Assembly (NCBI RefSeq): GCF_001458255.1
Contig: NZ_CYSB01000040.1
Coordinates: 310,001 to 374,000, forward strand
Source of the DNA: Thalassovita autumnalis
GTDB taxonomy: Bacteria; Pseudomonadota; Alphaproteobacteria; Rhodobacterales; Rhodobacteraceae
Direction of reading: 5' to 3'
DNA length: 64,000 nucleotides
Shown here: positions 21,710 to 59,461 of the stretch, piece after piece
Position numbering within the stretch: the first letter of the stretch is position 1
Layout of the letters: every line of letters starts with the position of its first letter
The notes under the pieces: generated by a model
What the model was told of the DNA's origin: nothing
The model's input: only the letters and a program-made list of their open reading frames with translations
Databases searched by the model: none
Translations under genes and position numbers: made by a program

Positions 21710-22204
21710 TTACAGCGCAGCTTCAATACGATGCAGCTGCCAGATGCTGCGTGCGTAGTATTTTTCTGCCTGATAGTCGGGATTGCTGTCAAAAGGATAA
21801 ATAACCCAGAGTGGTCCTTTGTCGCGCACCGACATCGGTTCACCGTTCATCCGATCCGCAATAATGGGACCGCCCTCCACCGCGTCTGACAGGGGAATGG
21901 TCACCGCATAATCATTCAGTGCTACGAAGCTCAACTCTTCTGCCGTTAGCCCCAGTTCGGCAACGAGCGTGGCCAGGGACACGCCCTCAAATTCCACCAG
22001 ACCTTCGGTCCAGATGGTTCGGGTGCGCACCACCTCCCGCGGGAGCTGATCCAGATCCGCGCGTTCCAGCGCGATCGAACGATCCGAGCCGGTGGATTTT
22101 ACGGTCAAAATTGGCTCAGCCAAAGCAGGCAAGCTGGTCGTGGCGAGTGTGAAAACAAGAGTGGCGGCCACAGCGATGGGGCGGAAGACAGTTGTGAAAA
22201 ACAT
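21710..22204 (-). CDS. Exported molybdopterin-binding-fold protein without catalytic Cys (possible sensor partner)
   Basis: 164 residues from the ATG at 22204, which starts a signal peptide (FFTTVFRPIAVAATLVFTLATTSLPALA). The mature part resembles the oxidoreductase molybdopterin-binding fold: VEFEGVSLATLVAELGL, NDYAVTIPLSDA, DKGPLWVIYPFD, and a final SIWQLHRIE. It has no Cys at all, so it cannot ligate Mo as SoxC does. It lies 9 bp upstream of the histidine kinase and is surely co-transcribed with it. A plausible role is a periplasmic ligand-binding accessory to the kinase sensor domain. That role is inference. Confidence 0.7.
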   Translation of the reverse strand: MFFTTVFRPIAVAATLVFTLATTSLPALAEPILTVKSTGSDRSIALERADLDQLPREVVRTRTIWTEGLVEFEGVSLATLVAELGLTAEELSFVALNDYAVTIPLSDAVEGGPIIADRMNGEPMSVRDKGPLWVIYPFDSNPDYQAEKYYARSIWQLHRIEAAL

Positions 22205-22279
22205 TTGGGGACCTCTTAGCGCTGCCCCCTTACTGTGACGCTTTTGAATTCGTCTGTGTCTGTGCAGTGGGATAGGCAA

Positions 22280-22478: not shown

Positions 22479-23090
22479 ATGCGTATTTTGATTGCCGACG
22501 ATCACGAAATGGTGCGCGACACGCTGACTGTGTTTTTGAATTCCGAAGGCCGTATTCAGGTTCTGCCTGCGGCCTCGCTGAAGGAAGCGATACAGGTCAT
22601 CGAAGCCAAAGGTCCCTTTGACCTGGTCCTGTTGGACTACAAAATGCCTGGCATGAACGGGCTGCAAGGCCTGAAACAGGCGATTGCCGATTATCCCAAC
22701 CAACCTTTTGCCATCCTCAGCGGCACCGCGCCCAATTCGGTTGCGCAAGAGGCTGTTGATGCCGGGGCACTGGGTTTCCTGCCGAAAACCATGGGGGCCA
22801 AAAGCATGGTCAACGCCATCCGTTTCATGGCCCTTGGTGAGACGTATATCCCTGCAGATGTGATGCAGGCGGCGAATTCCGCCGAAGATCCTTTCGACAA
22901 CCAGTTGAGCCAGCGCGAAACCGAAGTGCTGAGCGGCCTTTGCGCGGGCCATTCCAACAAGGAAATTGCCCGCGATCTGGGTCTTCAGGAGGTGACGATC
23001 AAACTGCATGTGCGCACTCTCTGCAAGAAACTGGATGCCCGGAACAGAACGCATGCGGCGGTGATTGCCAAAGAAGCAGGGTTTGCCTGA
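22479..23090 (+). CDS. NarL/FixJ (LuxR-type) response regulator
   Basis: 203 residues. The receiver domain (1-~120) has acidic residues in IADDHE, phospho-acceptor Asp53 (LLDYKMPGMNG) and the conserved Lys in LPKTM. The C-terminal LuxR HTH (~140-203) reads LSQRETEVLSGLCAGHSNKEIARDLGLQEVTIKLHVRTLCKKL. It is divergent from the exported-protein/hybrid-kinase operon, and the kinase Hpt domain could phosphorylate it. Regulators of this family bind short dyads, and one conserved dyad occurs in this intergenic region and before several alg genes. Confidence 0.93.
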   Translation: MRILIADDHEMVRDTLTVFLNSEGRIQVLPAASLKEAIQVIEAKGPFDLVLLDYKMPGMNGLQGLKQAIADYPNQPFAILSGTAPNSVAQEAVDAGALGFLPKTMGAKSMVNAIRFMALGETYIPADVMQAANSAEDPFDNQLSQRETEVLSGLCAGHSNKEIARDLGLQEVTIKLHVRTLCKKLDARNRTHAAVIAKEAGFA

Positions 23091-23117: not shown

Positions 23118-25736
23118 TCAGAAAACCAGACTGTCATAAAGGGCATCGGATTGGGTCAGCAGATCCAGACCGGTGCCCGTCAGCTCAACGGTGCAGGCCC
23201 CAAGGTCCATGCTGATCGTCCCATCCAGCGCCTGGGTGACCGCGCCTGCGAACCAGGTTTCACTGTCGCCAAGGCTGACCTGACGCAGGTCCAGATAGTC
23301 CCCTTCATCGATGTCATAATCGCGGATCTCAACGGTGGAGTTGTCCAGATCCCGATCGCGGAAGATGAACCGGTCCGCACCGTCACCGCCATAGGCGATG
23401 TCATCCCCGGCCCCCAGGAACAGGCTGTCGCGTCCGGCACCACCGTCAAGCACATCATCCCCAGATCCGGCCGCCAACGTGTCACGCCCTTCGCCGCCTG
23501 ACAGGGTATCGTGCCCCGATCCACCATTCATTCGGTCGCGGCCCGCGCCTCCTGTCAGATCGTCATCCCCAGAGCCACCGTAAAGCGTGTCATTTCCGGA
23601 ACCACCATCCAGCGCATCCGCACCTGATCCACCTGACAGGCTATCTGCGCCATCATCGCCGCGCAGGTCGTCACTGCCGCCGCTGCCTTCCAGCGTGTCG
23701 GCCCCTTCGCCGCCCATCAGCAGGTCATCATGGCTGCCGCCGCGCAGGACATCGTCACCGGCATCGCCGGAGAGCGTGTCAGCGCCCGAGTTTCCCAGCA
23801 ACAGATCGTTGCCCTCCCCGCCGTTCAGCAGGTCATCCCCGGTGCGCCCGTCCAGCGTATCCGCCCCCGCGCCGCCCTCCAGCGTGTCACGGTCACTGCC
23901 GCCGTTCAGATCATCAGCGCCCTCACCGCCCATCAGGTGGTCAAAGCCGGTGCCGCCTTGCAACGTGTCGTCACCAGTGCCACCCAGCAGCGTGTCATGG
24001 CCGGCCGATCCCGCAATCAGATCGTCGCCAATCCCACCGCTGAGCCAATCGTCGTTTTCCGGCAAGAGGTTGCCTAGGTGATCATAGCGCGCACCCTCGG
24101 CGTCATAGGTTGAGGCCGGGCCGGTGGCCACCGCATCAAACCCGGCGCCGCCGTGCAAGCTGTCATTGCCCTCACCGCCCATCAGGCTGTCGCCAATGGC
24201 CCCGCCGGTCAGCAAGTCCTCCCCAATGCCGCCCTCCATGGTGTCAGCACCGCCGCCACCCTGCAGGTCATCATTGTAGCTCAACTCACCTTCGGCCGTG
24301 GCCACCAGCTGCAGATCGCGGATCAGCACTGTGGCCTCCAAATCCACCGCCACAAACGGACTTAGCGCATTGGGGTCTGCGGCACCGTCATTTGAGTAGG
24401 ACCGCGGCGCATCTGTCACCAGAACCAGCGTGGCAGTTTGGGTGGCCTGATCAATCTCCACCCGGTAGATCCCGCCCGAAGCGCCAGTGGCATTGTTCAT
24501 ATCATGATCGCCTGAATTGCCGCCGACAAACAGCGTGCCATCAGTGTCATAGATCGCGGCACCAAAGGTAATCGCCGGGGTGCCGGTCAGCAGTTGATCG
24601 CCCACCTGAGTATGCGTCACAAGAATTGACGAAATCTGCGGCGTATCACCGGATACATCCACCGTGACCAGCGTTGCAGGTGCGCCCTCATACGACCCGC
24701 GGGCCACACCCGAAAAGCTCTGCGTGTTGGCATCAAAAGACAGGTCATAGACATTCAACCCAAAGAGCGCGTCGTTCAGGTCAATGCGTTCTTCAACCGG
24801 GTTACCATTGGCATCCAATGTGTCCACATCAATTTTGCTGAGGAAGTTCAGACGCGAATTAAAAATCCACAGGTTGCCCTGATCGTCAAAGTCACCGGTC
24901 CAGCTGCGGAACGGGCCCTCGCCGATACGGTAAACGTTGCCCTCGGCGTCAAACATCACCAGATCGTCGCGGCTGACCTGGTTGCCCAGCGCGTCCTGAC
25001 CGGTACCAACAGCAACACCATAGATCAGGCTGTCCTCCTGGTTGAAGCCAATGGCATTGACGTTCACCGTGCCATCCGCGCCCACCTGCTGGTACGTTGA
25101 GGTTTCCGTGTCAAATACATGCAGCGTGCCGTTAAAGACCTGATAGAGGTTGGCCTGACCAGGCGCGAAGGCCGCCACTGTTATCTCCTGGCCACCAATG
25201 GTCACCTGCGTGTCGGTAGTGTAGACCGCGCCGCTGGTGTCAATCACCGGTCCGCTGCCACTGCCTTCCAGCGTGCGCAGTGTAATTTCGGAACTGCTGC
25301 CAGTCGCGGTGAAGGTAAAACTGTGATCGGCAAAGGCACCGCTCTGGCTGTCATAGCTGGCGACGACGACACCATCGACCAGCACCTCAACCCCGGCATC
25401 CACATGCCCGCCGGCAAAGTTCGCAGCCAGCGACAGCGACAGCTCATAAACACCCTGCGCTTCGGTGCTGACGGTCTGACTCATCTCCTGATGGCCGCTG
25501 GGCAGGGTTGTCACCTGCCAGGCGCCAAGGCTCGCATAGTCCGAAAAACTAAGGGAGGCACCGGCATCCCCCAAAAGGTTTGCCTCAGCATAATCGCCAT
25601 AAATTAGGTCGTTGCCACTATCACCGGCAAGGGTGTCATCGCCTGACAGGCCCACCATTGTGTCCTGCCCTGCCCCAGCGTTCAGATCATCTGACAGGCC
25701 GGTGCCCTGGATCAACTGGTCCAGTAGATTAGACAT
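23118..25736 (-). CDS. RTX calcium-binding protein with beta-propeller-like domain
   Basis: 872 residues, no Sec signal. N-terminal ~45 residues have a few GxGxD motifs. Residues ~50-170 form a beta-sandwich-like region. Residues ~175-480 look like a DUF6923-type beta-propeller (IGFNQEDSLIYGVAVG, DDQGNLWIFN). Residues ~495-810 are about 30 tandem GGxGxDxLxGG nonapeptide repeats, which form Ca-binding beta-rolls. The C-terminal ~60 residues, ending in DALYDSLVF, fit an uncleaved type I secretion signal. AAGGAG precedes the ATG. It follows algD on the same strand. No exporter is adjacent; the one at 58-63 kb could serve it. It is extracellular, probably a matrix protein or adhesin, not a recognised enzyme. 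Confidence 0.85.
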   Translation of the reverse strand: MSNLLDQLIQGTGLSDDLNAGAGQDTMVGLSGDDTLAGDSGNDLIYGDYAEANLLGDAGASLSFSDYASLGAWQVTTLPSGHQEMSQTVSTEAQGVYELSLSLAANFAGGHVDAGVEVLVDGVVVASYDSQSGAFADHSFTFTATGSSSEITLRTLEGSGSGPVIDTSGAVYTTDTQVTIGGQEITVAAFAPGQANLYQVFNGTLHVFDTETSTYQQVGADGTVNVNAIGFNQEDSLIYGVAVGTGQDALGNQVSRDDLVMFDAEGNVYRIGEGPFRSWTGDFDDQGNLWIFNSRLNFLSKIDVDTLDANGNPVEERIDLNDALFGLNVYDLSFDANTQSFSGVARGSYEGAPATLVTVDVSGDTPQISSILVTHTQVGDQLLTGTPAITFGAAIYDTDGTLFVGGNSGDHDMNNATGASGGIYRVEIDQATQTATLVLVTDAPRSYSNDGAADPNALSPFVAVDLEATVLIRDLQLVATAEGELSYNDDLQGGGGADTMEGGIGEDLLTGGAIGDSLMGGEGNDSLHGGAGFDAVATGPASTYDAEGARYDHLGNLLPENDDWLSGGIGDDLIAGSAGHDTLLGGTGDDTLQGGTGFDHLMGGEGADDLNGGSDRDTLEGGAGADTLDGRTGDDLLNGGEGNDLLLGNSGADTLSGDAGDDVLRGGSHDDLLMGGEGADTLEGSGGSDDLRGDDGADSLSGGSGADALDGGSGNDTLYGGSGDDDLTGGAGRDRMNGGSGHDTLSGGEGRDTLAAGSGDDVLDGGAGRDSLFLGAGDDIAYGGDGADRFIFRDRDLDNSTVEIRDYDIDEGDYLDLRQVSLGDSETWFAGAVTQALDGTISMDLGACTVELTGTGLDLLTQSDALYDSLVF

Positions 25737-25854: not shown

Positions 25855-27315
25855 TCACCAGCCAATGCCTTCCAGCGGTGCGCGGGTTTCGCAGGGGCTG
25901 TTGTAAAGCCCCACCAGATCAATCACGGCCCGTGCATGGCTGCGGCGCATCTTGCTGCGATAGGCCTCAGAGGCATGGCAGACCACCAAGACCTCAGCGC
26001 CCTCAACAACCTCATCCAGATCGTCATTCAGCATCCCCGGCAGGTTCGCCGCCAGTTCTGCGCCGCCTTTGGAGCCGTGGCGTACGTAGGCGAGCTGACC
26101 CTCCAGCGGGGTGTCCTTGGTGATCGCCTCATCATGCACCTGCAGGGCAACACCTTCGGCATGCAGCGCGGCCATAACCTCCAGGATCGGGCTTTCGCGC
26201 AAGTCATCCGTGCCAGGCTTAAACGCCAGCCCAAGGATCCCAACCCGGCGGGCACCGGTGGTCCGCACCATACGCACCGCCTCTTCGATATGTTCACGGT
26301 TCGAGCGTTCCAGATTGCCGATCATGGGCAGGGTGACACCGGCCTCCTTGGCCATGTGCTGCACCGCACGCACCTCTTTTGGCAGGCAGGAGCCGCCGTA
26401 GGCAAAGCCCGGTTTCAAGTAATAGGCCGAAAGGTTCAGCTTGTGATCCTGAACGAAGATATCCATCACCTCGCGGCTATCAACGCCCGAGGGTTTACAC
26501 AGGCGGCCAACCTCATTGGCAAAGCAGACCTTGGTCGCATGCCAGACATTATCGACGTATTTCACCATCTCAGCCGCCTCAATGCTGGTAAAGATCGGCT
26601 GCGCATCCACCGGCGCATAGATGTCGCGCAGGATTTCCGCGCTGCGCAGATCGGTGGTGCCGATCACGGTCTTGGGCGGATTGTGGAAATCAGCGATGGC
26701 CACACCTTCACGCAGGAACTCAGGGTTAAAACAGACACCAAAGTCACGCCCCGCCTTGCGGCCCGAAATTCGTTCAATGATCGGTGCCATCACCGACAGT
26801 GTGGTGCCCGGCGGGATGGAGCAGCGCATCACAAAGACGTGGAAGCTGCGTTTGCGGCGCAAACCCCGTGCCATGCCCTCGGCGGCGGCCTCAATGTAGC
26901 GATAGTCACAGCCACCATCCGCTGCTGTCGGGGTGCCAACCGAGACAAAGGTCACATCTGTATCCCAAACCGCGCGTTCCAGATCATCGGTTGCCTCAAT
27001 CAGCCCGTTGGCCACGCCCTCGGAGAGGGTTTCGCCCAGATCTTTTTCATGGATCGGGCTTTCGCCGGCCGCGATCTGTTCCACCTTGCGGGCATCGACA
27101 TCAACACCAATGCAGCGGTGGCCCAGGCTGGACAGGCAGGCCATCGAAACAGCCCCAACATAACCCAGTCCCACCACGCTGATCGCGGGCTTCAGGACGG
27201 GGGTCTTTTGCGGATTTAGAACTGGGCGCAGCGCCGGGGCCAGATCGGGGTTCATTACCGGTTGCGGGGTGTCGACAACATCGGCGTTGCGCAGGTCAAG
27301 ATCCAAAAGTTCCAT
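25855..27315 (-). CDS. algD: GDP-mannose 6-dehydrogenase (AlgD-type nucleotide-sugar dehydrogenase)
   Basis: 486 residues from the ATG at 27315 (GGAGGG upstream). After a ~50-residue extension comes the Rossmann motif SVVGLGYVGAVSMACL. The catalytic Cys is in FAYGGSCLPKEV, a central Lys helix is in WHATKVCFANEVGRL, and a C-terminal UDP/GDP-binding domain has GILGLAFKPGTDDLRESP. From sequence alone a UDP-glucose enzyme is possible, but GDP-mannose is favoured because algA and alg8 lie directly upstream. It makes GDP-mannuronate, the precursor of the polymer. The N-terminal extension is longer than in Pseudomonas AlgD (about 436 residues). Confidence 0.88.
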   Translation of the reverse strand: MELLDLDLRNADVVDTPQPVMNPDLAPALRPVLNPQKTPVLKPAISVVGLGYVGAVSMACLSSLGHRCIGVDVDARKVEQIAAGESPIHEKDLGETLSEGVANGLIEATDDLERAVWDTDVTFVSVGTPTAADGGCDYRYIEAAAEGMARGLRRKRSFHVFVMRCSIPPGTTLSVMAPIIERISGRKAGRDFGVCFNPEFLREGVAIADFHNPPKTVIGTTDLRSAEILRDIYAPVDAQPIFTSIEAAEMVKYVDNVWHATKVCFANEVGRLCKPSGVDSREVMDIFVQDHKLNLSAYYLKPGFAYGGSCLPKEVRAVQHMAKEAGVTLPMIGNLERSNREHIEEAVRMVRTTGARRVGILGLAFKPGTDDLRESPILEVMAALHAEGVALQVHDEAITKDTPLEGQLAYVRHGSKGGAELAANLPGMLNDDLDEVVEGAEVLVVCHASEAYRSKMRRSHARAVIDLVGLYNSPCETRAPLEGIGW

Positions 27316-27410
27316 AGCTACCCTCCTATGAGTTTCCTTGAGATTAGCCACAGAAAGGAGGGGGTGGTGACGCCAGAAAGGACAGAACAACAGACAGAGG
27401 TTCACCCAAA

Positions 27411-27426
27411 CTAACCCTTTGTATAT
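27411..27426. promoter_or_regulatory. Half-conserved dyad box upstream of algD
   Basis: CTAACC-CTTT-GTATAT, 96-111 bp before the algD start. One half-site is perfect and the other degenerate compared with the algF, alg44 and kinase-operon boxes. Confidence 0.4.
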
Positions 27427-27522
27427 CAATAAAAATAGGGGAAAACCCAAACGCAAAAATGGGCCCGCAAGCTGCAGCATGCGGGCCCGACTGACGGGAC
27501 ACAGAGGGTCAGGATGCCACCG

Positions 27523-28950
27523 TCAGGCAACCTCTTCGTTTTGGTCACGCGCATAGATATCTTCATAGCGCGTGATGTCGTCTTCGCCGAGGTAACAACC
27601 CGATTGCACCTCAATCAGTGCCAGGGGCAATTTACCGGGATTTTCCAGCCGATGCACCGCGCCCAGCGGGATGTAGGTGCTTTCATTTTCGCTGACCAAT
27701 TTGGTCTCTTCCCCGACGGTCACCAGCGCCGATCCCTCGACCACGACCCAATGTTCGGCACGGTGCACATGGCTTTGCAGCGAAAGTTTCTGACCGGGAT
27801 GCACAACGATACGTTTGACCTGGAACCGTGCGCCCAGTGACAGGGTTTCATAAAATCCCCAGGGGCGGTGGCAGCGGGGGAATTCCTCGGCCTGCGGGGC
27901 AGACCGGGCGTTCAGCACCTCAATCGCTTTGCCCACGTCTTCGCTGCGGCTGGCATCGGCGACCAGCACCGCATCATCTGTTGCCACAGCCACGATCCCG
28001 TCCAGGCCAAGGCCGACGATGGCCATATCGCTGTTGGTGCTTTTCAGCAGGCTGTTGCGGCAGTCAATCGCACTGGCATCGCCAATCAACGCATTGCCAC
28101 CGGGTTTCTTGACCTGATGGTCGCGCAAGGCTGACCAACTGCCCAGATCAGCCCAGCCACAATCCAGCGACACCACGGTGCAGCTTGGCAGCTTTTCCAT
28201 GATCGCACGGTCAAAGGCGATGGCACGGCAGCGTTTGAACGCATCGCGGTTCAGCCGGTGGAAGCCAAGATCTTCCCCCCCAAGGCTGAGGCCCCCATGA
28301 CAGGGTGGCAGCAGATCCGACGCATGGGTTTTGAACAACTCCAACGCCACATCAACCCGCAGCATGAAGATCCCCGCGTTCCAGAGCGAGTTGCCCCGGC
28401 CCAGCAGTTCCGTCGCGGCAGCCGCATCTGGTTTTTCAATGAATTCAGTGACCTTCTGCACCTTGGCATCACTGCCCCGGTCTACCTGCAGGTAGCCATA
28501 GGCGCTGCTGGGGTGGGTGGGAAACACACCAAAACACACAACCTCACCTTCAGCCGCGGCGTCACGTCCCAGATCTACAGCGGCGTGGAAACCTGCCTCA
28601 TCCGAGATTACATGGTCGCTGGGGCTGATCAGCAGCACCGCTTCGGGCTGATCGCGATGGGCCAGCGCTGCGGTCAAAACGGCGGCTGCGGTGTTGCGCG
28701 CCACAGGTTCCACCAGATGCAGCACATTGCTGGCCCCGGCAGCGCCCATCTGATCCCGCGCAATGAAACGACAGTCTTCCGCGCTGATGACACAGGGGCG
28801 GTCAAAGCGGGGGTCGCTCAGGCGCTTCACGGTCTGTTGGAACAGCGTGTCACCGCCCAGAAGCGGAGCAAATTGTTTCGGCAACGCCTTACGCGAAGCA
28901 GGCCACATCCGGGTGCCGGTACCACCGGCCATAATCACAGGAATAATCAT
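27523..28950 (-). CDS. algA: Mannose-1-phosphate guanylyltransferase / mannose-6-phosphate isomerase
   Basis: 475 residues. The ATG at 28950 is favoured over the adjacent one at 28953 because GAGGG lies 5 rather than 2 bases away. The N-terminal nucleotidyltransferase domain has IMAGGTGTRMWPASRKALPKQF and later VTEFIEKPD. The C-terminal cupin isomerase domain has PWGFYETL, QVKRIVVHPGQKLSLQSHVHRAEHWVVVEG. This bifunctional AlgA/ManC type turns fructose-6-P-derived mannose-6-P, via mannose-1-P, into GDP-mannose in the cytoplasm. It lies between alg8 and algD, supplying the substrate of the latter. Confidence 0.93.
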   Translation of the reverse strand: MIIPVIMAGGTGTRMWPASRKALPKQFAPLLGGDTLFQQTVKRLSDPRFDRPCVISAEDCRFIARDQMGAAGASNVLHLVEPVARNTAAAVLTAALAHRDQPEAVLLISPSDHVISDEAGFHAAVDLGRDAAAEGEVVCFGVFPTHPSSAYGYLQVDRGSDAKVQKVTEFIEKPDAAAATELLGRGNSLWNAGIFMLRVDVALELFKTHASDLLPPCHGGLSLGGEDLGFHRLNRDAFKRCRAIAFDRAIMEKLPSCTVVSLDCGWADLGSWSALRDHQVKKPGGNALIGDASAIDCRNSLLKSTNSDMAIVGLGLDGIVAVATDDAVLVADASRSEDVGKAIEVLNARSAPQAEEFPRCHRPWGFYETLSLGARFQVKRIVVHPGQKLSLQSHVHRAEHWVVVEGSALVTVGEETKLVSENESTYIPLGAVHRLENPGKLPLALIEVQSGCYLGEDDITRYEDIYARDQNEEVA

Positions 28951-29035
28951 CATAACCCTCATTTGTTGCAGTCGTTGTTGCCAGACCAAGATGCCTGCAG
29001 ACGGGAAATAAATGTGGGGGCGAAGGGTCAGTGGA

Positions 29036-29051
29036 CTGTGCAAAAGGTTAG
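29036..29051. promoter_or_regulatory. Half-conserved dyad box upstream of algA
   Basis: On the minus strand CTAACC-TTTT-GCACAG, 86-101 bp before the algA start. The first half matches the algF and alg44 boxes perfectly; the second is degenerate. Confidence 0.4.
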
Positions 29052-29082
29052 GCGTCAGGCTGATCGCATATCAGTGATGGCT

Positions 29083-30672
29083 TCAAAGCCCTGGCAACTG
29101 CATCAGATCGACATAGACCATGATGGCCGTCACAAAGAGGCAGACGGCCGTGCAGAGCTGAAACAGCGCAAACCCATTACGCAACCGATCCTTCAAGCTA
29201 CGCGCCTCCCCCGCAGATTGATTGCCCCGGTTTGACCATTTCTGTTTGGAAAGATGAAAGATCATGTAGATCTTCACCGAGGCGTTAATCACCTGATTAA
29301 GGTAGAGGATAAATGGCCAGCTCATGTCCGCTTTGCGTGAATAGCCAAACAGGAACATCGACAGGGTCACCCGGGAAAAGACCACCCAGATCAAACAGTT
29401 CCAGACATAGCCCGGCGCGATGAAGTTGCCCAGGACCGCCATCACCGGACTGACCATCATGGTCCACATCGCAATGCGCTGATCCACAATGCACCACCAG
29501 ATAAACAGCGGCATCCGGCGTGGGCCCAGCGCAATTGCCCGCGCCCCGTTGCGCAACATGTTGCCCGACCAGCGGCGGAAGTTCTGCACCATCCGCGACA
29601 GCCCGTTTTCCTTGATCACCTCAATTGTGTAGACGGTGGTATCCGGCACATAGGTCATCTTCACGCCATTGCTCAGCAGGCGATACCAGCTGGATTTGTC
29701 ATCGCCAGACAGGAAGCGGAACCGCCCCCACAGCCAGTGATCGAGGTGGTCCGCCTCAATGTTGCGGATAAAGGCGCGGGTCAAAATATGGCGGGCGCGA
29801 AACACGCTCATCCGCCCGGTCAGGGTCAGCACCCGGCCCGCCAGCGCGTGGCTTTGCATGGCCAGCCGGCGCTGCGCAAACCGCATGTCCAGCCAGCGGG
29901 CGATCCAATCCGGACCGTAGCAGATCACCTCTTCATCGGTGGTCAGCGCCCCCAGTTCGGGATCGGCGGCGAACATCGGCAGGCATTTCTGCAGGACATC
30001 CCCGCCATAAAGCGCATCGCCATCCATGAAGATCACCAGATCGTCCGGGTCAACATCTTCGCGGCACATGGCCCGCAGAATCATGCCAATGGCCATACGT
30101 TTGCCCGGCTGGTTCTGCCGTAGGAACACCAGCTTGGCCAGATCATCGGGGATGTCCTGTGCATAGGTTTCGATAAAGTCGCGGATGATGTTTTCATCAT
30201 AGGCGCTGCCGGTGCCGATATAGATCGTCGTCGGGATCTTTTCGCGACGCACCTGCCCCAGGATGGAGCCGATCACCCGTTTAGTGATCGACGGTTCCTC
30301 ATAATAGGTGGTCATCTGGATATGCAGACGCTTGGGCCGCCAGCCCTCCTGCCACAGCGCATCGGCGCGGGCCCGCATGCCGGGCCAAACCAGTTTGCCC
30401 CAGTAGGCGGCGCGCACTGAATGGGTGAACCACCAGCCAAACCGCCAAATCCCCAGCCCGCCCAGGATCAGGGAAATATGCATCACATCGGGATCGAAAT
30501 ACCGGTTTGGCAGGTTGAACATCATCCATTGCAGCGCAAGCACAGTGATCAGCAGAATGCAGATGTGCGGCAACCGCCAGCGGCGCAGGTAACTGAGGCG
30601 CGGCGTTTCATAATCCCGCAGGCGCACCGCCAAATCTTTGTCAAAACCATATTCATCCTCAGGGCTGTACAT
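29083..30672 (-). CDS. alg8: Alg8-type mannuronan synthase (membrane glycosyltransferase)
   Basis: 529 residues from the ATG at 30672, which overlaps the alg44 stop (TGATG). Two N-terminal membrane helices (~38-52 and ~65-85) precede a family-2 glycosyltransferase domain with MDGD (~217), TTDEEV, GDDKSSW and the processivity motif QNFRRW. Several C-terminal helices end near VNASVKIYMIFHLSKQKW, the Alg8 signature tail (about 494 residues in Pseudomonas). It polymerises GDP-mannuronate at the inner membrane and needs Alg44 and c-di-GMP. Cellulose or hyaluronan synthases share the fold, but the partner genes and the tail favour Alg8. Confidence 0.88.
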   Translation of the reverse strand: MYSPEDEYGFDKDLAVRLRDYETPRLSYLRRWRLPHICILLITVLALQWMMFNLPNRYFDPDVMHISLILGGLGIWRFGWWFTHSVRAAYWGKLVWPGMRARADALWQEGWRPKRLHIQMTTYYEEPSITKRVIGSILGQVRREKIPTTIYIGTGSAYDENIIRDFIETYAQDIPDDLAKLVFLRQNQPGKRMAIGMILRAMCREDVDPDDLVIFMDGDALYGGDVLQKCLPMFAADPELGALTTDEEVICYGPDWIARWLDMRFAQRRLAMQSHALAGRVLTLTGRMSVFRARHILTRAFIRNIEADHLDHWLWGRFRFLSGDDKSSWYRLLSNGVKMTYVPDTTVYTIEVIKENGLSRMVQNFRRWSGNMLRNGARAIALGPRRMPLFIWWCIVDQRIAMWTMMVSPVMAVLGNFIAPGYVWNCLIWVVFSRVTLSMFLFGYSRKADMSWPFILYLNQVINASVKIYMIFHLSKQKWSNRGNQSAGEARSLKDRLRNGFALFQLCTAVCLFVTAIMVYVDLMQLPGL

Positions 30673-32141
30673 CACGTGCCCCCGGAGGTTTGCGTTGCGC
30701 CATCATCACTGGACCACAGGCTGTCAACACGCGCCTGCATCCAACCGCGCAGCCCTGCAAACATCTGCCGATCCGCGCTGAGGTTCACCGGCGCCCCGAC
30801 GCGCAGAGCGTCACGCAGCTGGGCATTGGTGAAGCCATCCAGCTGCACCGTGACCTCAATCCCATATTCACCGGGACGGTTCGGAATATCGCCAGCGCGC
30901 ACATCGCTAACGCGGCCGGTGACCTCCTGACGCGTTCCCGCCGTGTTGACCCGCACCCAAGCGGGCATGCCGGGGTAGAGGTCTTCGGCATATTGTTCAG
31001 ACACCCAGCCCACCACATGGCGTGGCGCATCATCTTCCATCTCAACCACGGGCTGGCCCGACAGGACATATTGACCAGGCTGGACCAGCACCGACTGAAC
31101 CACACCCGCATGCGGCGCAATGATCTTGGCCGCTTGCAGGCGGGCCTTGTAGCCATCGCGGGTTGAGCGATGTTGGCGCAGCAGGGTGTTTTCCTCGGCC
31201 AGTCGTTGGCGCAGCATGCGGGCGGTGACCTCCAGCGGGTCACGACCGGTGGCCAGATAGGGCTCATCCCGACGCAGCTGCTTCCAGCGATCGACAAGCG
31301 CATCGTAACCGCGGGGGCCGATCTGCGCCTCATAGATCAGGCCAACCTCCAACAGACGCAGCGCCTCATCCTTGACCCGGGCCAGTTTTTCCAGACGTTT
31401 CAGCGCCTTTTCCAACCGTTTGATCGCGTCACTGGTGGCCGCATAGGACACCCGGCTGGCCTTCAGACGGGCCACAACTTCGGGGTCTTCAATCAGTGCC
31501 AGCACATCGCCGGCGGCCACAACCTGCCCGGCCTCAGCCTGCAGGGCGCTGACCACGCCGGGACGCAGGGCGCTCAAGGCGGCGACGGGGGCAACCACAC
31601 GGCCGTGCTGAACATCGATCCGGTTGATGGCATTAAAGATATTGCTGCCAATGGTGATCATCACCCCGATGAACAGGCTGACATAAATCACCACATGCAC
31701 CACACTGCGCAGCACCTGGGTGATCTTGCGGCGCTGTCCGATCTTGGCCTCTGCCTCCGCCTCGGTTTCTTCAACTGGGACCAGATCCACCGGGGTGTCG
31801 AGTGAGGTGATCACATCGCCTGAGGCGACCATTCGCCCCGACAACAACGCCCGGTAAAACAGCGCCAACACTTCGCGCTGACGCCCTGTCAGATCCTTGA
31901 AGAAGATTTCACGAGTGTCCGGGGCTGGTTCCAAGGTGACCGGAAACCGCACATCAACCCCTTGAAACGGCACGGCAAGGTAGCCCTCCTCGGGACGTTC
32001 TGGCGCGTCTTCGGGCCATTTCAGACCCTGCAGTGACCACTCCCGGATCACCACCGGAACGCCCTCGGGCGTTTCAAAATGCAGCGGTGCCCGGACCATA
32101 TAGTCCAGATCCGCATGGGGAGATCGGTGTTCGACCCTCAT
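30672..32141 (-). CDS. alg44: Alg44-type PilZ / membrane-fusion co-polymerase
   Basis: 489 residues from the ATG at 32141, with GGAGG 6 bases upstream; the longer TTG form lacks support. An N-terminal PilZ domain has RxxxR at residues 2-6 (RVEHR) and WSLQG further on, so c-di-GMP binding should be intact. One membrane helix is at ~145-170. The periplasmic part is HlyD-like: a lipoyl half (GVVSALQAEAGQVVAAGDVLALIEDP), a ~120-residue helical hairpin, and the second lipoyl/beta-barrel half (GVVQSVLVQPGQYVLSGQP). It is ~100 residues longer than Pseudomonas Alg44, mostly from the helical hairpin. It activates Alg8 and may bridge towards the outer membrane. Confidence 0.88.
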   Translation of the reverse strand: MRVEHRSPHADLDYMVRAPLHFETPEGVPVVIREWSLQGLKWPEDAPERPEEGYLAVPFQGVDVRFPVTLEPAPDTREIFFKDLTGRQREVLALFYRALLSGRMVASGDVITSLDTPVDLVPVEETEAEAEAKIGQRRKITQVLRSVVHVVIYVSLFIGVMITIGSNIFNAINRIDVQHGRVVAPVAALSALRPGVVSALQAEAGQVVAAGDVLALIEDPEVVARLKASRVSYAATSDAIKRLEKALKRLEKLARVKDEALRLLEVGLIYEAQIGPRGYDALVDRWKQLRRDEPYLATGRDPLEVTARMLRQRLAEENTLLRQHRSTRDGYKARLQAAKIIAPHAGVVQSVLVQPGQYVLSGQPVVEMEDDAPRHVVGWVSEQYAEDLYPGMPAWVRVNTAGTRQEVTGRVSDVRAGDIPNRPGEYGIEVTVQLDGFTNAQLRDALRVGAPVNLSADRQMFAGLRGWMQARVDSLWSSDDGATQTSGGT

Positions 32142-32241
32142 CGAAACCTCCGGCAACGGGAAACCTAAGGAAACCCTAAGCCCTTCGCACCGAAATAAGT
32201 GCGTTCAGCAGGGCAGTCCGGCGCCCATCGGGTCAGCCGGA

Positions 32242-32257
32242 CTAACCTATCGGTTAG
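32242..32257. promoter_or_regulatory. Perfect dyad box CTAACC-TATC-GGTTAG upstream of alg44
   Basis: 6-bp arms with a 4-bp spacer in the 136-bp gap between algX and alg44, 101-116 bp before the alg44 start. It is the most symmetric copy of the box also found before algF and the kinase operon. Suggests an internal promoter for alg44-alg8. Confidence 0.6.
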
Positions 32258-32277
32258 GAGTGGGAGTGGCCGCAGGC

Positions 32278-33303
32278 CTAACCGTTTTGCGCGGCTTTCA
32301 TCGCCTTCAGAACAGCGCCCAAGCGTTTGGTGGAGTTAAAGTTCTGCGTATAGGGAATTTCCCAAATCACCAGGTCATAGGCCTGATTGTCGAGGCCACC
32401 TGAATTCAGGAAACTCTGCATCGCGCGGTGCAGCCCGCCGCCCGAGATCGAATGGTTCACAACCGAGCGCCCAAAGGCAGACGCCATTGCATCCGCAACC
32501 CGGTAGTGATCGCGTTTGTAGCGGTCAGAAAAGCTGGTACCGACAAGGGCAATCTGCGGTCCCTTAGTGTCATCCAGCAGCCCCGCACCCGGCACATCCG
32601 CAAGGACGGCGATGTTTGATGTCTCTTTCGGAACCTTTTGGTCACAGCTTTTGCGCACCAGATCGGCAAGGGATCCGCGTTCTTCAATCTTGCCTTTCCA
32701 GCCAAGGATCGCAGGCCCCTCGGCCATACGCAGCTTTGGCGCCTCAGCGGCGACGGCCTGGGCCAGCGCTTCGGCGCTATGGGCCGCGCCAACGGTTGTC
32801 CAATGGGTGTCACGGCGGAAATAGAACCGGCGGCGCAGTTGCGGATCGCTTAGCGCCAACACGCTCAGATCCGGCACAATCGCCCCCATGCCCCGATATT
32901 CCGCCAGCATCGCCTGAAAACTGGCCTGCGTTGCGATTGCATCATAGTCGGCCGCTGCCGCCCCCATGGTTTTGCGCAGGATCCCCTGCCCAGCGACCAC
33001 CGGACGTGGCGGCGTGATCAGGATCGCCAGTTTGACGCCTTTGGCCTCAAACCCCTGCACGATTTCCGCCATCATCGCCTTGGGTTTGTCCTTCAGCGCA
33101 AAGGACTGGCGCATCTGGTTGGCGGCGAAGATCCAGCCGGTGTCAGAGCTGGAATAGACCGGCGCAAGGCTGGCATATTTCTCAGGCAGGGCATCGGCGT
33201 CCAACAAGGCTTCGCAATAGGGTGCGGCGGCAAGGGCGGGTGCCAACACGCTGAGACAGGTTGCAAAAACACAGCGAGAAAGGGTTTTGGTGAAACGGGT
33301 CAT
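32278..33303 (-). CDS. algX: SGNH-type alginate O-acetyltransferase, AlgX-related
   Basis: 341 residues with a Sec signal (cleavage near LAAAPYC). The ALGX/SGNH-like domain shows the Asp-His dyad D165/H167 in RDTHWTTVGA and nucleophile Ser257 in ALVGTSFSD. Pseudomonas AlgX (~474 residues) adds a carbohydrate-binding domain that is missing here, so this could equally be a second AlgJ. The family moves acetyl groups onto mannuronate O2/O3 in the periplasm. It lies 1 bp after algJ and before the alg44 promoter gap. Confidence 0.75.
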   Translation of the reverse strand: MTRFTKTLSRCVFATCLSVLAPALAAAPYCEALLDADALPEKYASLAPVYSSSDTGWIFAANQMRQSFALKDKPKAMMAEIVQGFEAKGVKLAILITPPRPVVAGQGILRKTMGAAAADYDAIATQASFQAMLAEYRGMGAIVPDLSVLALSDPQLRRRFYFRRDTHWTTVGAAHSAEALAQAVAAEAPKLRMAEGPAILGWKGKIEERGSLADLVRKSCDQKVPKETSNIAVLADVPGAGLLDDTKGPQIALVGTSFSDRYKRDHYRVADAMASAFGRSVVNHSISGGGLHRAMQSFLNSGGLDNQAYDLVIWEIPYTQNFNSTKRLGAVLKAMKAAQNG

Positions 33304-33304
33304 A

Positions 33305-34327
33305 TCAACCTCCTTGCAGCAAAATGTAACGTTCGGGGATTTCCCAAATGACGATATCGGGCGGGCTGCCGTGCAGCTCAGGTGAGGTCAGGTAATCCCG
33401 CATCGGGGCAAAGGGCCCCTTGCCGATCTGCGCCAGGTTCAGCACGTCCTGACCCAGCGCCGACTTGAGGAACCCTTCGAAATGAAAGTCTGCCTTGGCA
33501 GAATAGGAGGTGCCGATCAGCGCAACGGGCACCCGGGTGTCAGCGAAAAGCGCCATGGCGTCGGTGGCGTCCGCGGCCTTATCCAGCGTTTCATAGCGGG
33601 TGATCCGATCCAGCGGCAGGGCAACCCAATCAGCGAAGCGGCCCGTTTCAGCAAAGACCATCAGGTCGCCGCGAAACGGGTCCTGCCCGTTGGATTGCGT
33701 GACAAAAGCATCCTCCGCCGGTTTCGCGCCCAACTGCTGCGCCAGTGCCTCAGCAACGGCGCGGGCCGCCTCTGGCTGCCAATGGGTGTCCCCGCGCAGG
33801 AACCCATGCGCCTGCATCGCTGAGCGGGTATCCAACGCGGCAAACCCTTCGGCCCGCAGCAGGTCCAGCGCCGCCGCATAGCGGTTTTGCAACGCGGCTG
33901 AGCGGCGATAGGGCAAACGATCCGCATGCACCCGCGCCTTATCCGGCAGGATCACTGGCACCAGCTGCACGCCAAGCGCTGCCAGTTCCGCGCGGGCCTG
34001 CCGCAGCAGGGGCACCGGATCTTCGGCCAGGGCGGGGGTTTCAAACTCCTCCGCCGTGAAGATCCAACCGTCACGGCCCAGCACTGCGCCCTCCGCCACC
34101 TCCTTAAACAGGGCAAGGCGCAGGGCGGCATAGGCCTCCACACTCCAACCGCGCGAGGGCAAAGCATCTGCAAAGGTGCTTTCGTATTGGCGTTGATAGC
34201 TGCCCCCGGTCAGTCCGGTCAGCGCCTGTTCCGGCGCCGCGGCGCGGTGGCCCTGCCATCCGGCCAGCGCAACGGCCAGCCCCAGCAAGGAGGCGAAACA
34301 CATGTTTTGTTGATGATCGCTTAGCAT
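33305..34327 (-). CDS. algJ: AlgJ, periplasmic alginate O-acetylation protein
   Basis: 340 residues. The N-terminal hydrophobic segment (FASLLGLAVALAGW) is an uncleaved anchor or signal. The SGNH/ALGX-type catalytic elements are D180/H182 (RGDTHWQPEA) and Ser274 (LIGTSYSAKAD). AlgJ works with AlgI and AlgF, receiving acetyl groups passed across the membrane. It lies 12 bp after algI. It has the same fold as the following gene, but the two differ widely in sequence outside the motifs. Confidence 0.83.
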   Translation of the reverse strand: MLSDHQQNMCFASLLGLAVALAGWQGHRAAAPEQALTGLTGGSYQRQYESTFADALPSRGWSVEAYAALRLALFKEVAEGAVLGRDGWIFTAEEFETPALAEDPVPLLRQARAELAALGVQLVPVILPDKARVHADRLPYRRSAALQNRYAAALDLLRAEGFAALDTRSAMQAHGFLRGDTHWQPEAARAVAEALAQQLGAKPAEDAFVTQSNGQDPFRGDLMVFAETGRFADWVALPLDRITRYETLDKAADATDAMALFADTRVPVALIGTSYSAKADFHFEGFLKSALGQDVLNLAQIGKGPFAPMRDYLTSPELHGSPPDIVIWEIPERYILLQGG

Positions 34328-34339
34328 TTCAACGTCTCC

Positions 34340-35746
34340 TCAAAACTGGAAGTACAGGAAGGGTGAGTCACTGCGCGCCTGCATCACCAGCACCGCCGAC
34401 AGGAGCAACAGCAACGTGCCAAGGCGCGGCGCTTGCGGCAGGCGCAGATTGACCCGCGCCGCTGACAGCATCGGCCAGAGGGCAATCGCCCAGCCAAGCC
34501 ACATCGCCAGCCATTCCGTCGGCTTGCAGAGCATCCAAACCTCCCCCCGCAAGGCGAGGCCATTCAGGCCAAACATCCCGGCATAGACCTGCCCCGCTGT
34601 GGCCAGATCCGGCGCACGGAACACCACCCAGCCCAGCATCACCAGGACCAGCGTGAAGCCCCAGGCCCCTGCAGATCCGATGTGGCGGGACCAAACGGCG
34701 CCGGATTTGCTGCCCAGTGCCCGTTCCACGGCCATCCAGCCACCGTGCCAGATCCCCCAGAGGACAAAGGTCCAGTTGGCACCATGCCAGATGCCACCCA
34801 GCACCATGGTCAGCAGCAGATTGCGATAAGTTTTCACCGCCCCGGCGCGGTTGCCGCCCAGCGGGATGTAGAGGTAATCGCGCAGCCAGGTTGACAAGCT
34901 GATGTGCCAACGTTGCCAGAATTCCGTTACCGATTGGCTAATATAGGGGGCGTTAAAGTTTTCGATGAACCGAAAACCGATCATCAGCCCTAGACCAATT
35001 GCCATCGCTGAATAGCCCGCGAAATCAAAGAACAACTGCACCGAATAGGCGCTGGCGGCCAGCCAACCCTCTGCCAGCGTGGGGTCCTGCAGGGCAAACA
35101 GGCGATCGACCATCGGGGCCACGCTGTCGGCAATCAAGATCTTCATCGCCAGCCCCAGGGCAAACCGACGGACCCCCATGAGGAACTGGGCAAGGGAATG
35201 ACTGCGGGTCTGGAACTGATCCGCCAGATCCTTGTAGCGCAGCACCGGACCGGCAATCAGCTGCGGAAACAGCGTTGAAAAGGCAAGGAAATCCCAGATA
35301 TTGCGGGCGGGCGGCGCATCACCGCGTGCCACATCGATGACATAGCTGATGCATTGAAACGTCAGGAAGGACAGGCCAATGGGCAGGATAATCTCAGGGC
35401 TGGTGACCTCCCCCCGGCCCAGCGCCTGCCAGAGGGCATCGGCATTGCCGAGGACAAAGTTGGTGTATTTGAAGTAGCCCAGAACCGACAGGTTGCCGAT
35501 CACCCCAAGGCTGACCCAGGCTTTGCGGGTTTGAGCGGACACGGCGCGATTGGCCATTGCCGCACAGACATAGCTGCCAAAGGCCATGGCCAGAACAAGC
35601 GCCAGAAAATCCAGCCGCCACCAGGCGTAAAAGACCGCGCTGGCCAGCAGGATCACCGGCGAGCGCCCACTGCGCGGCACGACGTAGTAAAGCAACAGAA
35701 ACGCCGGCAGAAAGCCAAAGATAAACATCGGGGTGGAGAAGATCAT
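34340..35746 (-). CDS. algI: AlgI, MBOAT-family acetyl-transfer membrane protein
   Basis: 468 residues with about ten membrane helices. MBOAT signatures: FWQRWHISLSTWLRDYLYIPLGG, and the catalytic His in LGGIWHGANWTFVLWGIWHG. It carries acetyl groups from the cytoplasm to the periplasmic acetyltransferases. Similar proteins acetylate cellulose (WssH) or other polymers; alg8 and alg44 nearby favour alginate. It starts 3 bp after algF. Confidence 0.9.
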   Translation of the reverse strand: MIFSTPMFIFGFLPAFLLLYYVVPRSGRSPVILLASAVFYAWWRLDFLALVLAMAFGSYVCAAMANRAVSAQTRKAWVSLGVIGNLSVLGYFKYTNFVLGNADALWQALGRGEVTSPEIILPIGLSFLTFQCISYVIDVARGDAPPARNIWDFLAFSTLFPQLIAGPVLRYKDLADQFQTRSHSLAQFLMGVRRFALGLAMKILIADSVAPMVDRLFALQDPTLAEGWLAASAYSVQLFFDFAGYSAMAIGLGLMIGFRFIENFNAPYISQSVTEFWQRWHISLSTWLRDYLYIPLGGNRAGAVKTYRNLLLTMVLGGIWHGANWTFVLWGIWHGGWMAVERALGSKSGAVWSRHIGSAGAWGFTLVLVMLGWVVFRAPDLATAGQVYAGMFGLNGLALRGEVWMLCKPTEWLAMWLGWAIALWPMLSAARVNLRLPQAPRLGTLLLLLSAVLVMQARSDSPFLYFQF

Positions 35747-35749
35747 GGC

Positions 35750-36352
35750 TCACTCCTCCAGCAGATCACCGATCTGGTTTTCGATCAGCCGCACGCCGTC
35801 ATCTGTCACCAGAACGGTGACATTCTGACCCCGGCGCAGCCGCACCGCGACCTCCCCCAACGGGCGGTCATCATCCGCCAGAACCGCCAAACGGGCCGAG
35901 ACCGGATTGACCATCCGACCACCGCTGGCAAAGGCGTTGGTTTGCTGGATCACCTCATGGCCGGCATCCGCCAGCACCAGCCGCACCGGCTGACCCGAGG
36001 CATTGAGCAGGATCAGGTGGACTTTGGATTTCTGGCCACGCGCGGGTTCCTCCACCAGACGCGCCGTGCCCTCAGGGCCCGCCAGTACCGAATAAAACGC
36101 ACCCGGCTCAGCGCCGTTCAGATGGCGGGCGGAAAGCGGGCGATAGGCCTCCTGGCCTGCGACAGGCTGATGCGGCAGGCCCAACGCGGGCAGCGGTACA
36201 TCGGTATCGACCCAGCGCAGAAAAATCGCATCACTGGGCAGATCCGGCGCATAAAGCGCCGCCTCATCGGTATCCGCGAAAACAGCGGTCGCGGCCATCA
36301 CGCAGGCTGCAACCGCAGCCGCGACCGGGGGGGAAAAGCGTTGTGTAAACAT
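35750..36352 (-). CDS. algF: AlgF, periplasmic alginate O-acetylation accessory protein
   Basis: 200 residues from the ATG at 36352 (GAGGAG 6 bases upstream), with a Sec signal ending near TAVFADTDEA. The rest is an AlgF-type double beta-sandwich protein (ALYAPDLPSDAIFLRWVDTD; LNASGQPVRLVLADAGHEV) with no catalytic residues visible. It is needed with AlgI and AlgJ for acetylation. First gene of the leftward operon; a dyad box lies 72-87 bp upstream. Confidence 0.85.
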   Translation of the reverse strand: MFTQRFSPPVAAAVAACVMAATAVFADTDEAALYAPDLPSDAIFLRWVDTDVPLPALGLPHQPVAGQEAYRPLSARHLNGAEPGAFYSVLAGPEGTARLVEEPARGQKSKVHLILLNASGQPVRLVLADAGHEVIQQTNAFASGGRMVNPVSARLAVLADDDRPLGEVAVRLRRGQNVTVLVTDDGVRLIENQIGDLLEE

Positions 36353-36423
36353 CGGTGACTCCTCTTTGAAGTCATCGCTATCATGTTCACCCCACGCCAA
36401 ACTCGGTGCAGAGGGTGTGCTTT

Positions 36424-36480: not shown

Positions 36481-37233
36481 TCAGACCTGCACCAAAACCC
36501 CCGCGTCGGTTTTAACAACCTCAGCATCGGTGCCAAAAACCTGTGACAGCAGCGCTTTGCTGACAATCTCGGCCGGGGGGCCCATTGGCCCCAGCTGACC
36601 GCCGGTAAGGGTCACCATGTGATCGGCATAGGCGCAGGCGTAATTGATATCGTGCAGCACCGTGACCACGGTCCGGCCATGATCATGCGCCAGCGCGCGC
36701 AGGCGTTTCATCAGGGATCGGCTGGCGGCGATGTCCAGATTGTTCAGCGGCTCATCCAGCAGCACGTAATCGGTATCCTGCGCAAAGGTCATCGCCACAT
36801 GGGCCCGCTGCCGCTGCCCACCTGAAAGCGCCTCTAACGGGCGGTCCGCCAGATCCTGCAGGTCAAAGGCCACCAGCGCCTCTTCGACCTTTTGGTGGTC
36901 CTCTGCGGTGGCGCGTCCCCGGTGATGCGGATAGCGGCCAAAGCCAACCAATTCCCGCACCGTCAAACGCGGGGCCACTTCGGCGGCCTGCGGCAGGATC
37001 GCCAGTTTGCGCGCCAAGTCGCGGGTTGGGGTTTTGCCAACCTCCATCCCGTCCACCTCAATCCGGCCCGATTGGATCGGCATCAGACGGGCGATCAAGC
37101 TCAGCAGTGTCGATTTCCCTGCACCGTTTGCCCCAACCAGCGCCGTCACCCCACCCCGCGGCAGGGTCAGGGACAGATCGCTGAGGATCGGCGTCGCGCC
37201 GTAGCGATGGCTCAGGCCCGAGATTTGGATCAT
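36481..37233 (-). CDS. Siderophore/iron-chelate ABC transporter ATPase
   Basis: 250 residues. Walker A GANGAGKST, signature LSGGQRQRAHVA, Walker B YVLLDEPLNNLD and switch His in TVLHDINYA. It belongs to the FecE/FepC/CeuD group. Its start overlaps the stop of the upstream permease (ATGA), so it is the last gene of a four-gene operon. It energises uptake of an iron chelate through the two FecCD-type permeases. Confidence 0.92.
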   Translation of the reverse strand: MIQISGLSHRYGATPILSDLSLTLPRGGVTALVGANGAGKSTLLSLIARLMPIQSGRIEVDGMEVGKTPTRDLARKLAILPQAAEVAPRLTVRELVGFGRYPHHRGRATAEDHQKVEEALVAFDLQDLADRPLEALSGGQRQRAHVAMTFAQDTDYVLLDEPLNNLDIAASRSLMKRLRALAHDHGRTVVTVLHDINYACAYADHMVTLTGGQLGPMGPPAEIVSKALLSQVFGTDAEVVKTDAGVLVQV

Positions 37234-39123: not shown

Positions 39124-39126
39124 GTG

Positions 39127-57951: not shown

Positions 57952-57957
57952 CTTCGC

Positions 57958-57981
57958 GTTGGGGCGGACCGCCGCCCCAAC
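57958..57981 (+). other. Stem-loop between adhesin and exporter genes
   Basis: Perfect 10-bp stem GTTGGGGCGG / CCGCCCCAAC with a 4-base loop, 6 bp after the adhesin stop. No T run follows. Likely partial terminator or mRNA-protecting hairpin that keeps exporter expression below adhesin expression. Confidence 0.6.
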
Positions 57982-58018
57982 CACCCGTCCACCCCAAGCC
58001 ATTCAGGAGACCACCCGG

Positions 58019-59347: not shown

Positions 59348-59440
59348 GCCAGAAAGGTCCGGTCATCCTGTCGATCAACCCGACCGTGCCAAAGACGGCA
59401 AAGCCCGCAAATACGCCGGGCCACGCCCAAGCTACGCCTG

Positions 59441-59452
59441 CCCCCCCCCCCC
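59441..59452 (+). repeat. C12 homopolymer that breaks the exporter ATPase frame
   Basis: Twelve consecutive C. The frame opening at 59344 (TTG overlapping the TolC stop) runs into this tract, and the conserved exporter frame lies +1 after it. With 11 or 14 C the two join into one protein with a Pro/Ala-rich junction. With 12 the upstream start gives only a 97-residue product. Possible slippage-based switch or a sequencing error. Confidence 0.75.
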
Positions 59453-59461
59453 ACGGCACCA

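Follow-up and report, generated by a model that had tools for sequence, protein, structure and literature searches.

A 64,000-nucleotide stretch of the Thalassovita autumnalis genome (contig NZ_CYSB01000040.1; hereafter the window) carries an alginate-type operon that is probably a variant, found mainly in Rhodobacterales, of the alginate synthase-dependent system. The operon is a lineage-wide variant of alginate-type secretion and not a one-off gene loss. It combines genes for precursor supply, an Alg8-type synthase and an acetylation module with an RTX gene and an Alg44-like protein that has lost the RxxxR motif and is predicted to carry a long periplasmic hairpin.

In the route proposed, AlgA and AlgD would supply GDP-mannuronate, which Alg8 would polymerise while taking the chain through the inner membrane. 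The Alg44-like partner, having lost the RxxxR motif for cyclic diguanylate (c-di-GMP), would serve Alg8 through its conserved PilZ-like part, and its periplasmic part would, in this genome, reach outwards as an adaptor of the HlyD type with its long hairpin. The chain would be O-acetylated by AlgI, AlgF and two AlgJ-type enzymes and, with no epimerase, would remain polymannuronate. Control has probably shifted to a two-component system, and an RTX/beta-propeller protein of the type I secretion kind, made alongside, probably binds the polymer with calcium. Crossing of the outer membrane would proceed without AlgK and, here, without AlgE, the first candidate being a shared duct of the TolC type with which the adaptor would make contact; this TolC-type exit is offered only as a lead.

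Make-up and distribution of the operon

The genes in question are the following.

35750..36400, minus strand: algF-like, periplasmic acetylation protein (PF11182, 48.1 bits, cut-off 34.4)
34340..35746, minus strand: algI-like MBOAT protein (PF03062, 111 bits; WHG motif in 15 of 15 clustered AlgI relatives)
33305..34327, minus strand: X2, AlgJ/AlgX-type SGNH acetyltransferase (PF16822, 236 bits; DTHW at 180, GTSYS at 272)
32278..33303, minus strand: X1, second AlgJ/AlgX-type SGNH acetyltransferase (PF16822, 146 bits; DTHW at 165, GTSFS at 255)
30672..32156, minus strand: Alg44-like protein with a PilZ-like N-terminal part lacking RxxxR, one transmembrane helix and a HlyD-type adaptor part (HlyD_3, 6.7e-20)
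29083..30675, minus strand: Alg8-type glycosyltransferase family 2 (GT2) synthase (placed by tree; DGD and GDDKS motifs; single copy)
27523..29043, minus strand: AlgA, GDP-mannose pyrophosphorylase / mannose-6-phosphate isomerase (TIGR01479, 532 bits, cut-off 373)
25855..27480, minus strand: AlgD, GDP-mannose 6-dehydrogenase (399 bits to 1mfz; SCLPK in 67 of 67 clustered relatives)
23118..25736, minus strand: RTX calcium-binding protein with jelly roll, beta-propeller and RTX repeats (PF00353, DUF6923)
22479..23090, plus strand: LuxR-type response regulator, convergent to the RTX gene (PF00072, PF00196; 47 of 80 loci)
21710..22279, minus strand: small protein with a partial molybdopterin-oxidoreductase domain (PF00174, 31 bits; 33 of 80 loci)
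19073..21700, minus strand: PAS hybrid histidine kinase, the likely partner of the response regulator (34 of 80 loci)

An earlier note on this DNA had named eight genes, from algF to algD, and all eight lie where it placed them, on the minus strand at 25855-36400; the upper end of algF is 36400, the end of 36352 given in that note being an in-frame ATG. Closure of the operon at algD was not borne out. An 872-amino-acid RTX protein is encoded 118 bp past algD on the same strand, and this gene (23118-25736) and the two-component genes had been overlooked. The order on the minus strand is algF, algI, the genes for two AlgJ/X-type acetyltransferases, alg44-like, alg8, algA and algD, followed by the RTX gene, with 1-12 bp between the acetylation genes, 121 bp ahead of alg44, a 4-bp overlap of alg44-like with alg8, and about 40 bp to algA and to algD. 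All reading frames of the operon are intact. Most of its proteins are named by Pfam or NCBIfam with strong scores, Alg8 and the Alg44-like protein being recognised only as a GT2 and a HlyD-family protein. A promoter and terminator scan gave matches at chance level, and a PHROGs search with two proteins gave no match. The source genome (G000; 4.36 Mb in 48 contigs) is listed as 100% complete.

Related loci were collected from GTDB contigs, where a scan yielded 95, of which the best 80 were kept (numbered with the prefix L; genomes carry the prefix G). By title, 74 of the 80 are Rhodobacterales, the six others being L026, L042, L053, L075, L076 and L078. Genes were counted from automatically picked frames, the loci being 4-21.6 kb long, and those cut by locus ends are undercounted. 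Clustering placed Alg44 in 72 of the 80 loci, AlgD in 67 and the RTX protein in 61; it gave 47 for the response regulator, 40 for AlgA (with a fragment cluster in 6 loci), 34 for the kinase and 33 for the molybdopterin-type protein, followed by AlgI (15), X1 (14), X2 (13) and AlgF (10). Best BLAST labels gave 78 for Alg44, 68 for AlgD, 62 for RTX, and 47 each for AlgA and the response regulator, with AlgI in 15, X1 and X2 in 14 each and AlgF in 12. Among the 57 loci that reach 19 kb or more, Alg44 and AlgD were each present in 53, RTX in 51, the regulator in 41, AlgA and the kinase in 33 each, AlgI in 13 and AlgF in 9. These counts define the core as alg44-alg8-(algA)-algD-RTX, often with two-component genes, to which acetylation is added.

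Acetylation is thus an add-on module to the core operon. A full set of AlgI, AlgJ, AlgF and an AlgX-like protein had been claimed in the earlier note; in the window these genes are indeed present with intact catalytic motifs, but the label AlgX-like fits either SGNH protein, and across the system the set is optional, AlgI being found in only those 15 loci. X2 and X1 (341 and 340 amino acids) match the SGNH domain only, with no second Pfam domain, and both genes accompany AlgI in 13 of the 15 AlgI loci. For instance, L003 has acetylation genes, whereas L004, equally close in Alg8, has none within its flanks. Such differences between close relatives, together with the missing epimerase, scaffold, porin and lyase, are what would be expected of a remnant, decaying or silent, of a full operon for alginate that had been acquired elsewhere. 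The frames and catalytic motifs are intact, however, and the core is kept over many genera, and a remnant is very improbable.

In the window, the genes for the small molybdopterin-type protein and the kinase are situated downstream; in L044, L046, L047, L048, L052 and L079 they stand directly upstream of alg44, and in L037 they are inverted upstream, together with the regulator. That the two stay linked despite rearrangement argues for a working link, though it is not proof of one. No recurrent gene was seen upstream of alg44 in the loci without acetylation genes.

Upstream of algF, genes for an ABC importer with a metal/siderophore-type binding protein (window 36481-40017) end about 80 bp away on the same strand, so that read-through into the acetylation genes is possible.

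Precursor supply, Alg8 and the likely polymer

The earlier note had counted AlgA, AlgD, Alg8 and Alg44 as a complete cytoplasmic and inner-membrane set, and this holds for the supply of GDP-mannuronate and the motifs of Alg8, but the Alg44 is not an ordinary one. AlgA scores above the GMP_PMI equivalog cut-off. AlgD aligns with chain residues 3-436 of the solved GDP-mannose dehydrogenase of P. aeruginosa (1mfz, 399 bits), and its identification as a UDP-glucose dehydrogenase was rejected, the best such enzyme scoring 267 bits. Homology of AlgD begins near residue 99, and the true start may thus lie downstream.

The alg8 gene is present once in the source genome. Alg8 matches were found in 26 of 398 Pseudomonadota genomes, four of them window-type (67-100% identity), 20 at 32-38% identity and two at 23%. 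An IQ-TREE tree of 48 rows (33 of the 80 window-type loci, the window and 14 reference rows; midpoint root, with a long-branch warning among the reference rows) splits the 34 window-type Alg8s from the 14 reference Alg8s with support of 100/100, the inner branches being 0.89 and 2.69. Three of the reference rows (L112, L114 and L125) come from operons in Pseudomonas order, and in one (L120) no further alg gene is labelled close by. In seventy columns, those of DGD and GDDKS among them, one and the same residue is conserved to 90% or more both in the 81 window-type rows and in the 14 reference rows, and 12 columns differ between the groups. By homology, and by the motifs common to the Alg8 of alginate operons, the protein belongs with Alg8, though as a separate clade.

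The depth of this split, seen in the two inner branches, and the 12 clade-specific residue changes are suggestive of a sister clade with an altered donor or linkage whose product is a different polymer of uronate or mannose, with AlgA and AlgD providing no more than its precursors; the absence of a lyase and the fact that AlgA does not adjoin alg8 in part of the loci point the same way. This is nonetheless an unlikely explanation. AlgD is clearly of the GDP-mannose type, is present in 53 of the 57 loci of 19 kb or more, and the active-site motifs of Alg8 are common with the reference Alg8s. Because AlgD is nearer to GDP-mannose dehydrogenase and the Alg8 motifs are shared, acetylated polymannuronate would be the likeliest product, as a best guess from the proteins encoded.

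Outside Rhodobacterales, the alphaproteobacterial Alg8 relatives of L075 and L078 have an MBOAT gene downstream.

The Alg44-like protein and candidate routes across the outer membrane

The Alg44-like protein has the layout of an Alg44, with a cytoplasmic PilZ-like part, one transmembrane helix and a periplasmic membrane-fusion part, and its gene adjoins alg8. In the structure model (mean predicted local distance difference test score, pLDDT, of 88; predicted template modelling score of 0.60), residues 20-105 form a predicted, mainly beta domain (pLDDT mostly >90) that aligns with the PilZ part of reference Alg44s; a Pfam search of the protein gave no PilZ match. Many of the residues that are invariant in the reference PilZ parts are kept. 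The two arginine columns of RxxxR, however, hold D and M, and the DxSxGG columns hold E, S, Q and G, leaving the protein without the PilZ RxxxR and DxSxxG that mark a c-di-GMP copolymerase. In P. aeruginosa Alg44, the RxxxR residues bind c-di-GMP (PMC8461298, in excerpt). Relatives were compared in an alignment of the window and 58 of the 72 clustered proteins, 12 having been dropped because their aligned length fell short of 440, and L007 and L052 being absent as well; across these 59 sequences, the first RxxxR column is never Arg.

The second departure lies in the periplasmic part. The predicted hairpin is 119 residues long in the window and 94-130 across the 59 aligned sequences, as against 6, 7, 30, 34, 67 and 88 residues for the same region in six reference Alg44s. 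The top Foldseek matches of the model are EmrA, MacA and MexA, with low whole-chain TM-scores (0.29-0.39 among the matches listed), and a search of plasmid records with the protein gave no match. The adaptors EmrA and MacA of TolC pumps share the predicted fold of the adaptor part, and four OEP-family genes in the source genome likewise speak for the proposed variant. Unlike EmrA and MacA, the Alg44-like adaptor is fused to a PilZ-like domain and stands beside a synthase with no pump, and its hairpin is poorly conserved, is missing in part of the family and lacks a docking pattern.

The earlier note held that AlgE, AlgK, AlgG and AlgL were absent, and a search of the rest of the genome for the four genes found none of them, except for a weak PF13372 barrel on contig C46. 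The absence of AlgL is clear: the alginate lyase family PF05426 has no match in the whole source genome and, in searches of 12 genomes (four window-type and 8 of 20 reference-type), matched 0 of 4 window-type and 8 of 8 reference-type genomes. The AlgK-AlgE outer-membrane pair of the canonical operon was not found, the AlgK query being without a positive control. Sel1 repeats occur in a single 169-residue frame in the source genome and in longer frames in the three other window-type genomes, and in L025 the cluster is split into two halves with a TPR/Sel1 protein in between.

A number of observations weigh against the proposed variant and its adaptor. Two of the six reference Alg44s, from the Rhodobacterales loci L111 and L118, likewise lack RxxxR, and the reference proteins of L115 and L118 have inserts of 88 and 67 residues at the hairpin site. 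Within the Alg44-like protein, conservation is lowest in the hairpin (0.32-0.40), the PilZ-like part reaching 0.61. The TolC-docking pattern, RxxxLxxxxxxS/T, occurs in 5 of 59 sequences, below the 6.7 expected, and so is not enriched beyond chance. Eight of the 72 clustered proteins, all among the 12 dropped for length, have no hairpin, and L043 has an AlgE-type porin gene yet keeps its hairpin. An AlgE-type gene heads the acetylation genes in L043, L044, L045, L046, L047, L052 and L079. With the four OEP-type genes of the source genome as queries, such genes were found in only one of the 80 loci (L004). In addition, the AlgK query, which found nothing in the source genome, has no positive control, and the lack of any match there to two AlgG-type queries has a weak one, given that one of these queries matches only 2 of the 12 genomes and misses G054 and G058, which have an AlgG-type gene; the claimed absences of AlgK and of the epimerase hold to that extent.

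The eight hairpin-less relatives lower confidence in the proposed variant and in the TolC-type adaptor. Four of them (L054, L062, L065 and L066) keep further adaptor parts, and in the other four (L069, L070, L072 and L073) only the N-terminal PilZ-like part aligns, with no adaptor part, the frames adjoining alg8. The adaptor-less frames belong to two Mameliella loci and to two short contigs (L069 and L070) of one metagenome-assembled sediment genome. The remaining four dropped for length (L032, L036, L060 and L064) have hairpins of 90-123 residues, and some short frames may be due to contig ends or frame errors. The clade-wide constant is therefore the PilZ-like part and not the adaptor. A fuller version, in which the copolymerase has turned into a TolC-type adaptor, sending polyuronate through a shared efflux duct free of c-di-GMP control to be gelled outside by a co-secreted RTX/propeller protein and calcium, is a long shot.

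With regard to the porin, the earlier note is right for this genome but not for the whole system, given the seven loci with an AlgE-type gene beside algF. The full-length copies of L043 and L045 match PF13372 with 65.9 and 62.3 bits, the other five being cut by the locus start and assigned by 42-52% identity to L043. These loci make up 7 of the 13 with AlgI and both SGNH genes, which would fit an AlgE-type porin as the family's general means of export, lost here or swapped for an unrelated barrel such as the C46 protein, the one PF13372 protein of the source genome. However, a homologue of the operon porin is missing from 15 of 18 genomes (the source and 14 of 17 others), the three matching genomes serving as positive controls, tblastn with the operon porins found matches in just 7 of the 80 loci, and PF13372 has no match in the window-type genomes G135, G067 and G226. 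General export by a porin is thus doubtful: the gene is part of the cluster in some genera and is not seen in the cluster in most loci.

The C46 protein, a weak PF13372 match (39.4 bits) away from the operon, was considered as the operon's missing porin and judged unrelated, because its gene is separate from the operon, the same three genomes have no PF13372 counterpart of it, and it shows no significant similarity to the operon porin of relatives. Nor is it significantly similar to the AlgE of L114, which is of the Pseudomonas type; its match to the barrel of L122 is marginal (E 3e-4, 111 columns). The protein is 61% identical to one of G313 and adjoins a frame that looks serine-hydrolase-like by eye. 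PF13372 matches occur in 6 of the 12 genomes, the source genome being alone among the window-type ones.

Elsewhere in the window (54856-62808) lies a type I secretion set, in which the gene for a large adhesin with Ig repeats and a BapA-type prefix is followed by those for a TolC-type protein, an ABC exporter and a HlyD adaptor. A TolC-type gene 90% identical to that of the window sits about 5 kb from alg44 in L004.

The RTX protein and the relation to known alginate systems

A full-length RTX protein is encoded in 47 of the 80 loci, with 45-81% identity over the first 520 residues. In the remaining 15 of 62 clustered RTX proteins this part is missing or reduced to a 47-residue match; the six of these scanned all have RTX repeats, to which L076 adds DUF4114 and L065 a weak match of the serralysin C-terminal type. 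The model of residues 1-520 (mean pLDDT 89.6) has a jelly roll followed by a beta-propeller. Conservation within the protein is highest in the propeller (0.72), above any measured part of the Alg44-like protein. The Foldseek matches are generic propellers with TM-scores of about 0.27, so no enzyme activity can be named. The protein was rejected as a secreted C-5 epimerase of the Azotobacter AlgE1-7 type, as it has a jelly roll and propeller and no beta-helix; the beta-helix and RTX protein of L118 is the contrasting case. A calcium-dependent role in the matrix or in binding polymer is probable. Two distant relatives lie on plasmids, one beside another polysaccharide-type cluster and one not. 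In six loci (L058, L061, L062, L064, L065 and L066), AlgD and a different RTX protein adjoin alg8 on the opposite strand, those RTX proteins of L058, L061, L065 and L066 being mainly repeats.

The alginate operon of Pseudomonas and Azotobacter has the order algD-8-44-K-E-G-X-L-I-J-F-A, which is recognisable in part in L112, L114 and L125. The window has in common with it AlgA, AlgD, Alg8, an Alg44 relative, AlgI, AlgF and AlgJ/X-type acetyltransferases. It differs in gene order, in the lack of any detected AlgK, AlgG or AlgL and of an AlgE in the genome, in an Alg44 with a long hairpin and no RxxxR, and in the attached RTX/propeller and two-component genes.

Loci of reference type in Rhodobacteraceae and Rhizobium (L111, L118, L119, L110 and L121) have an Alg8 34-37% identical to that of the window, with AlgD adjoining in four of the five, L118 being the exception. 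Unlike the window, they carry a lyase, a Sel1/TPR protein and/or a beta-helix protein, and the three genomes searched, G313, G321 and G107, are positive for PF05426. In L111 (10588-25323), on a plasmid of Loktanella salsilacus, a fuller operon encodes AlgD, Alg8, Alg44, a nucleotidyltransferase, a beta-helix protein, an MBOAT protein, AlgF and a Sel1 protein. In L118 (9321-16012; G313), from the same family as the window, Alg8 and Alg44 are accompanied by an alginate lyase and a beta-helix and RTX protein resembling a secreted epimerase of the Azotobacter type. The Rhizobium-type loci L110 and L121 have AlgD-Alg8-Alg44, a beta-helix protein of about 1255 amino acids, an alginate lyase and large Sel1/TPR proteins (Pfam for L121 only). 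In L115, L116 and L117, AlgD-Alg8-Alg44 occur alongside an AlgL-type protein, a member of polysaccharide lyase family 14 and a Sel1 protein (family f51) of about 900 amino acids, the assignments resting on Pfam for L115 only and, for AlgL, on clustering.

Atypical alginate operons without algKE and with a diverged alg44 are already in print (PMC7112194, PLoS Comput Biol 2020, in excerpt); the excerpted text names deep-sea bacteria and makes no mention of this clade, the RTX partner or an adaptor hairpin. Literature on an Alg8 of Rhodobacterales or of this clade was not found among the matches listed. The distinct alphaproteobacterial system proposed in the earlier note is thus upheld by the 100/100 support of the Alg8 clade, but not as the first case of an operon without algKE: such loss is known, and this Rhodobacterales clade is a well-defined variant.

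In Pseudomonas, alginate leaves the cell through a dedicated TPR-porin pair, AlgK and AlgE. A widespread marine clade whose core operon is without this pair would make the minimum for polyuronate export testable. It would also point to marine biofilms that contain an acetylated mannuronan, which a partner protein may gel.

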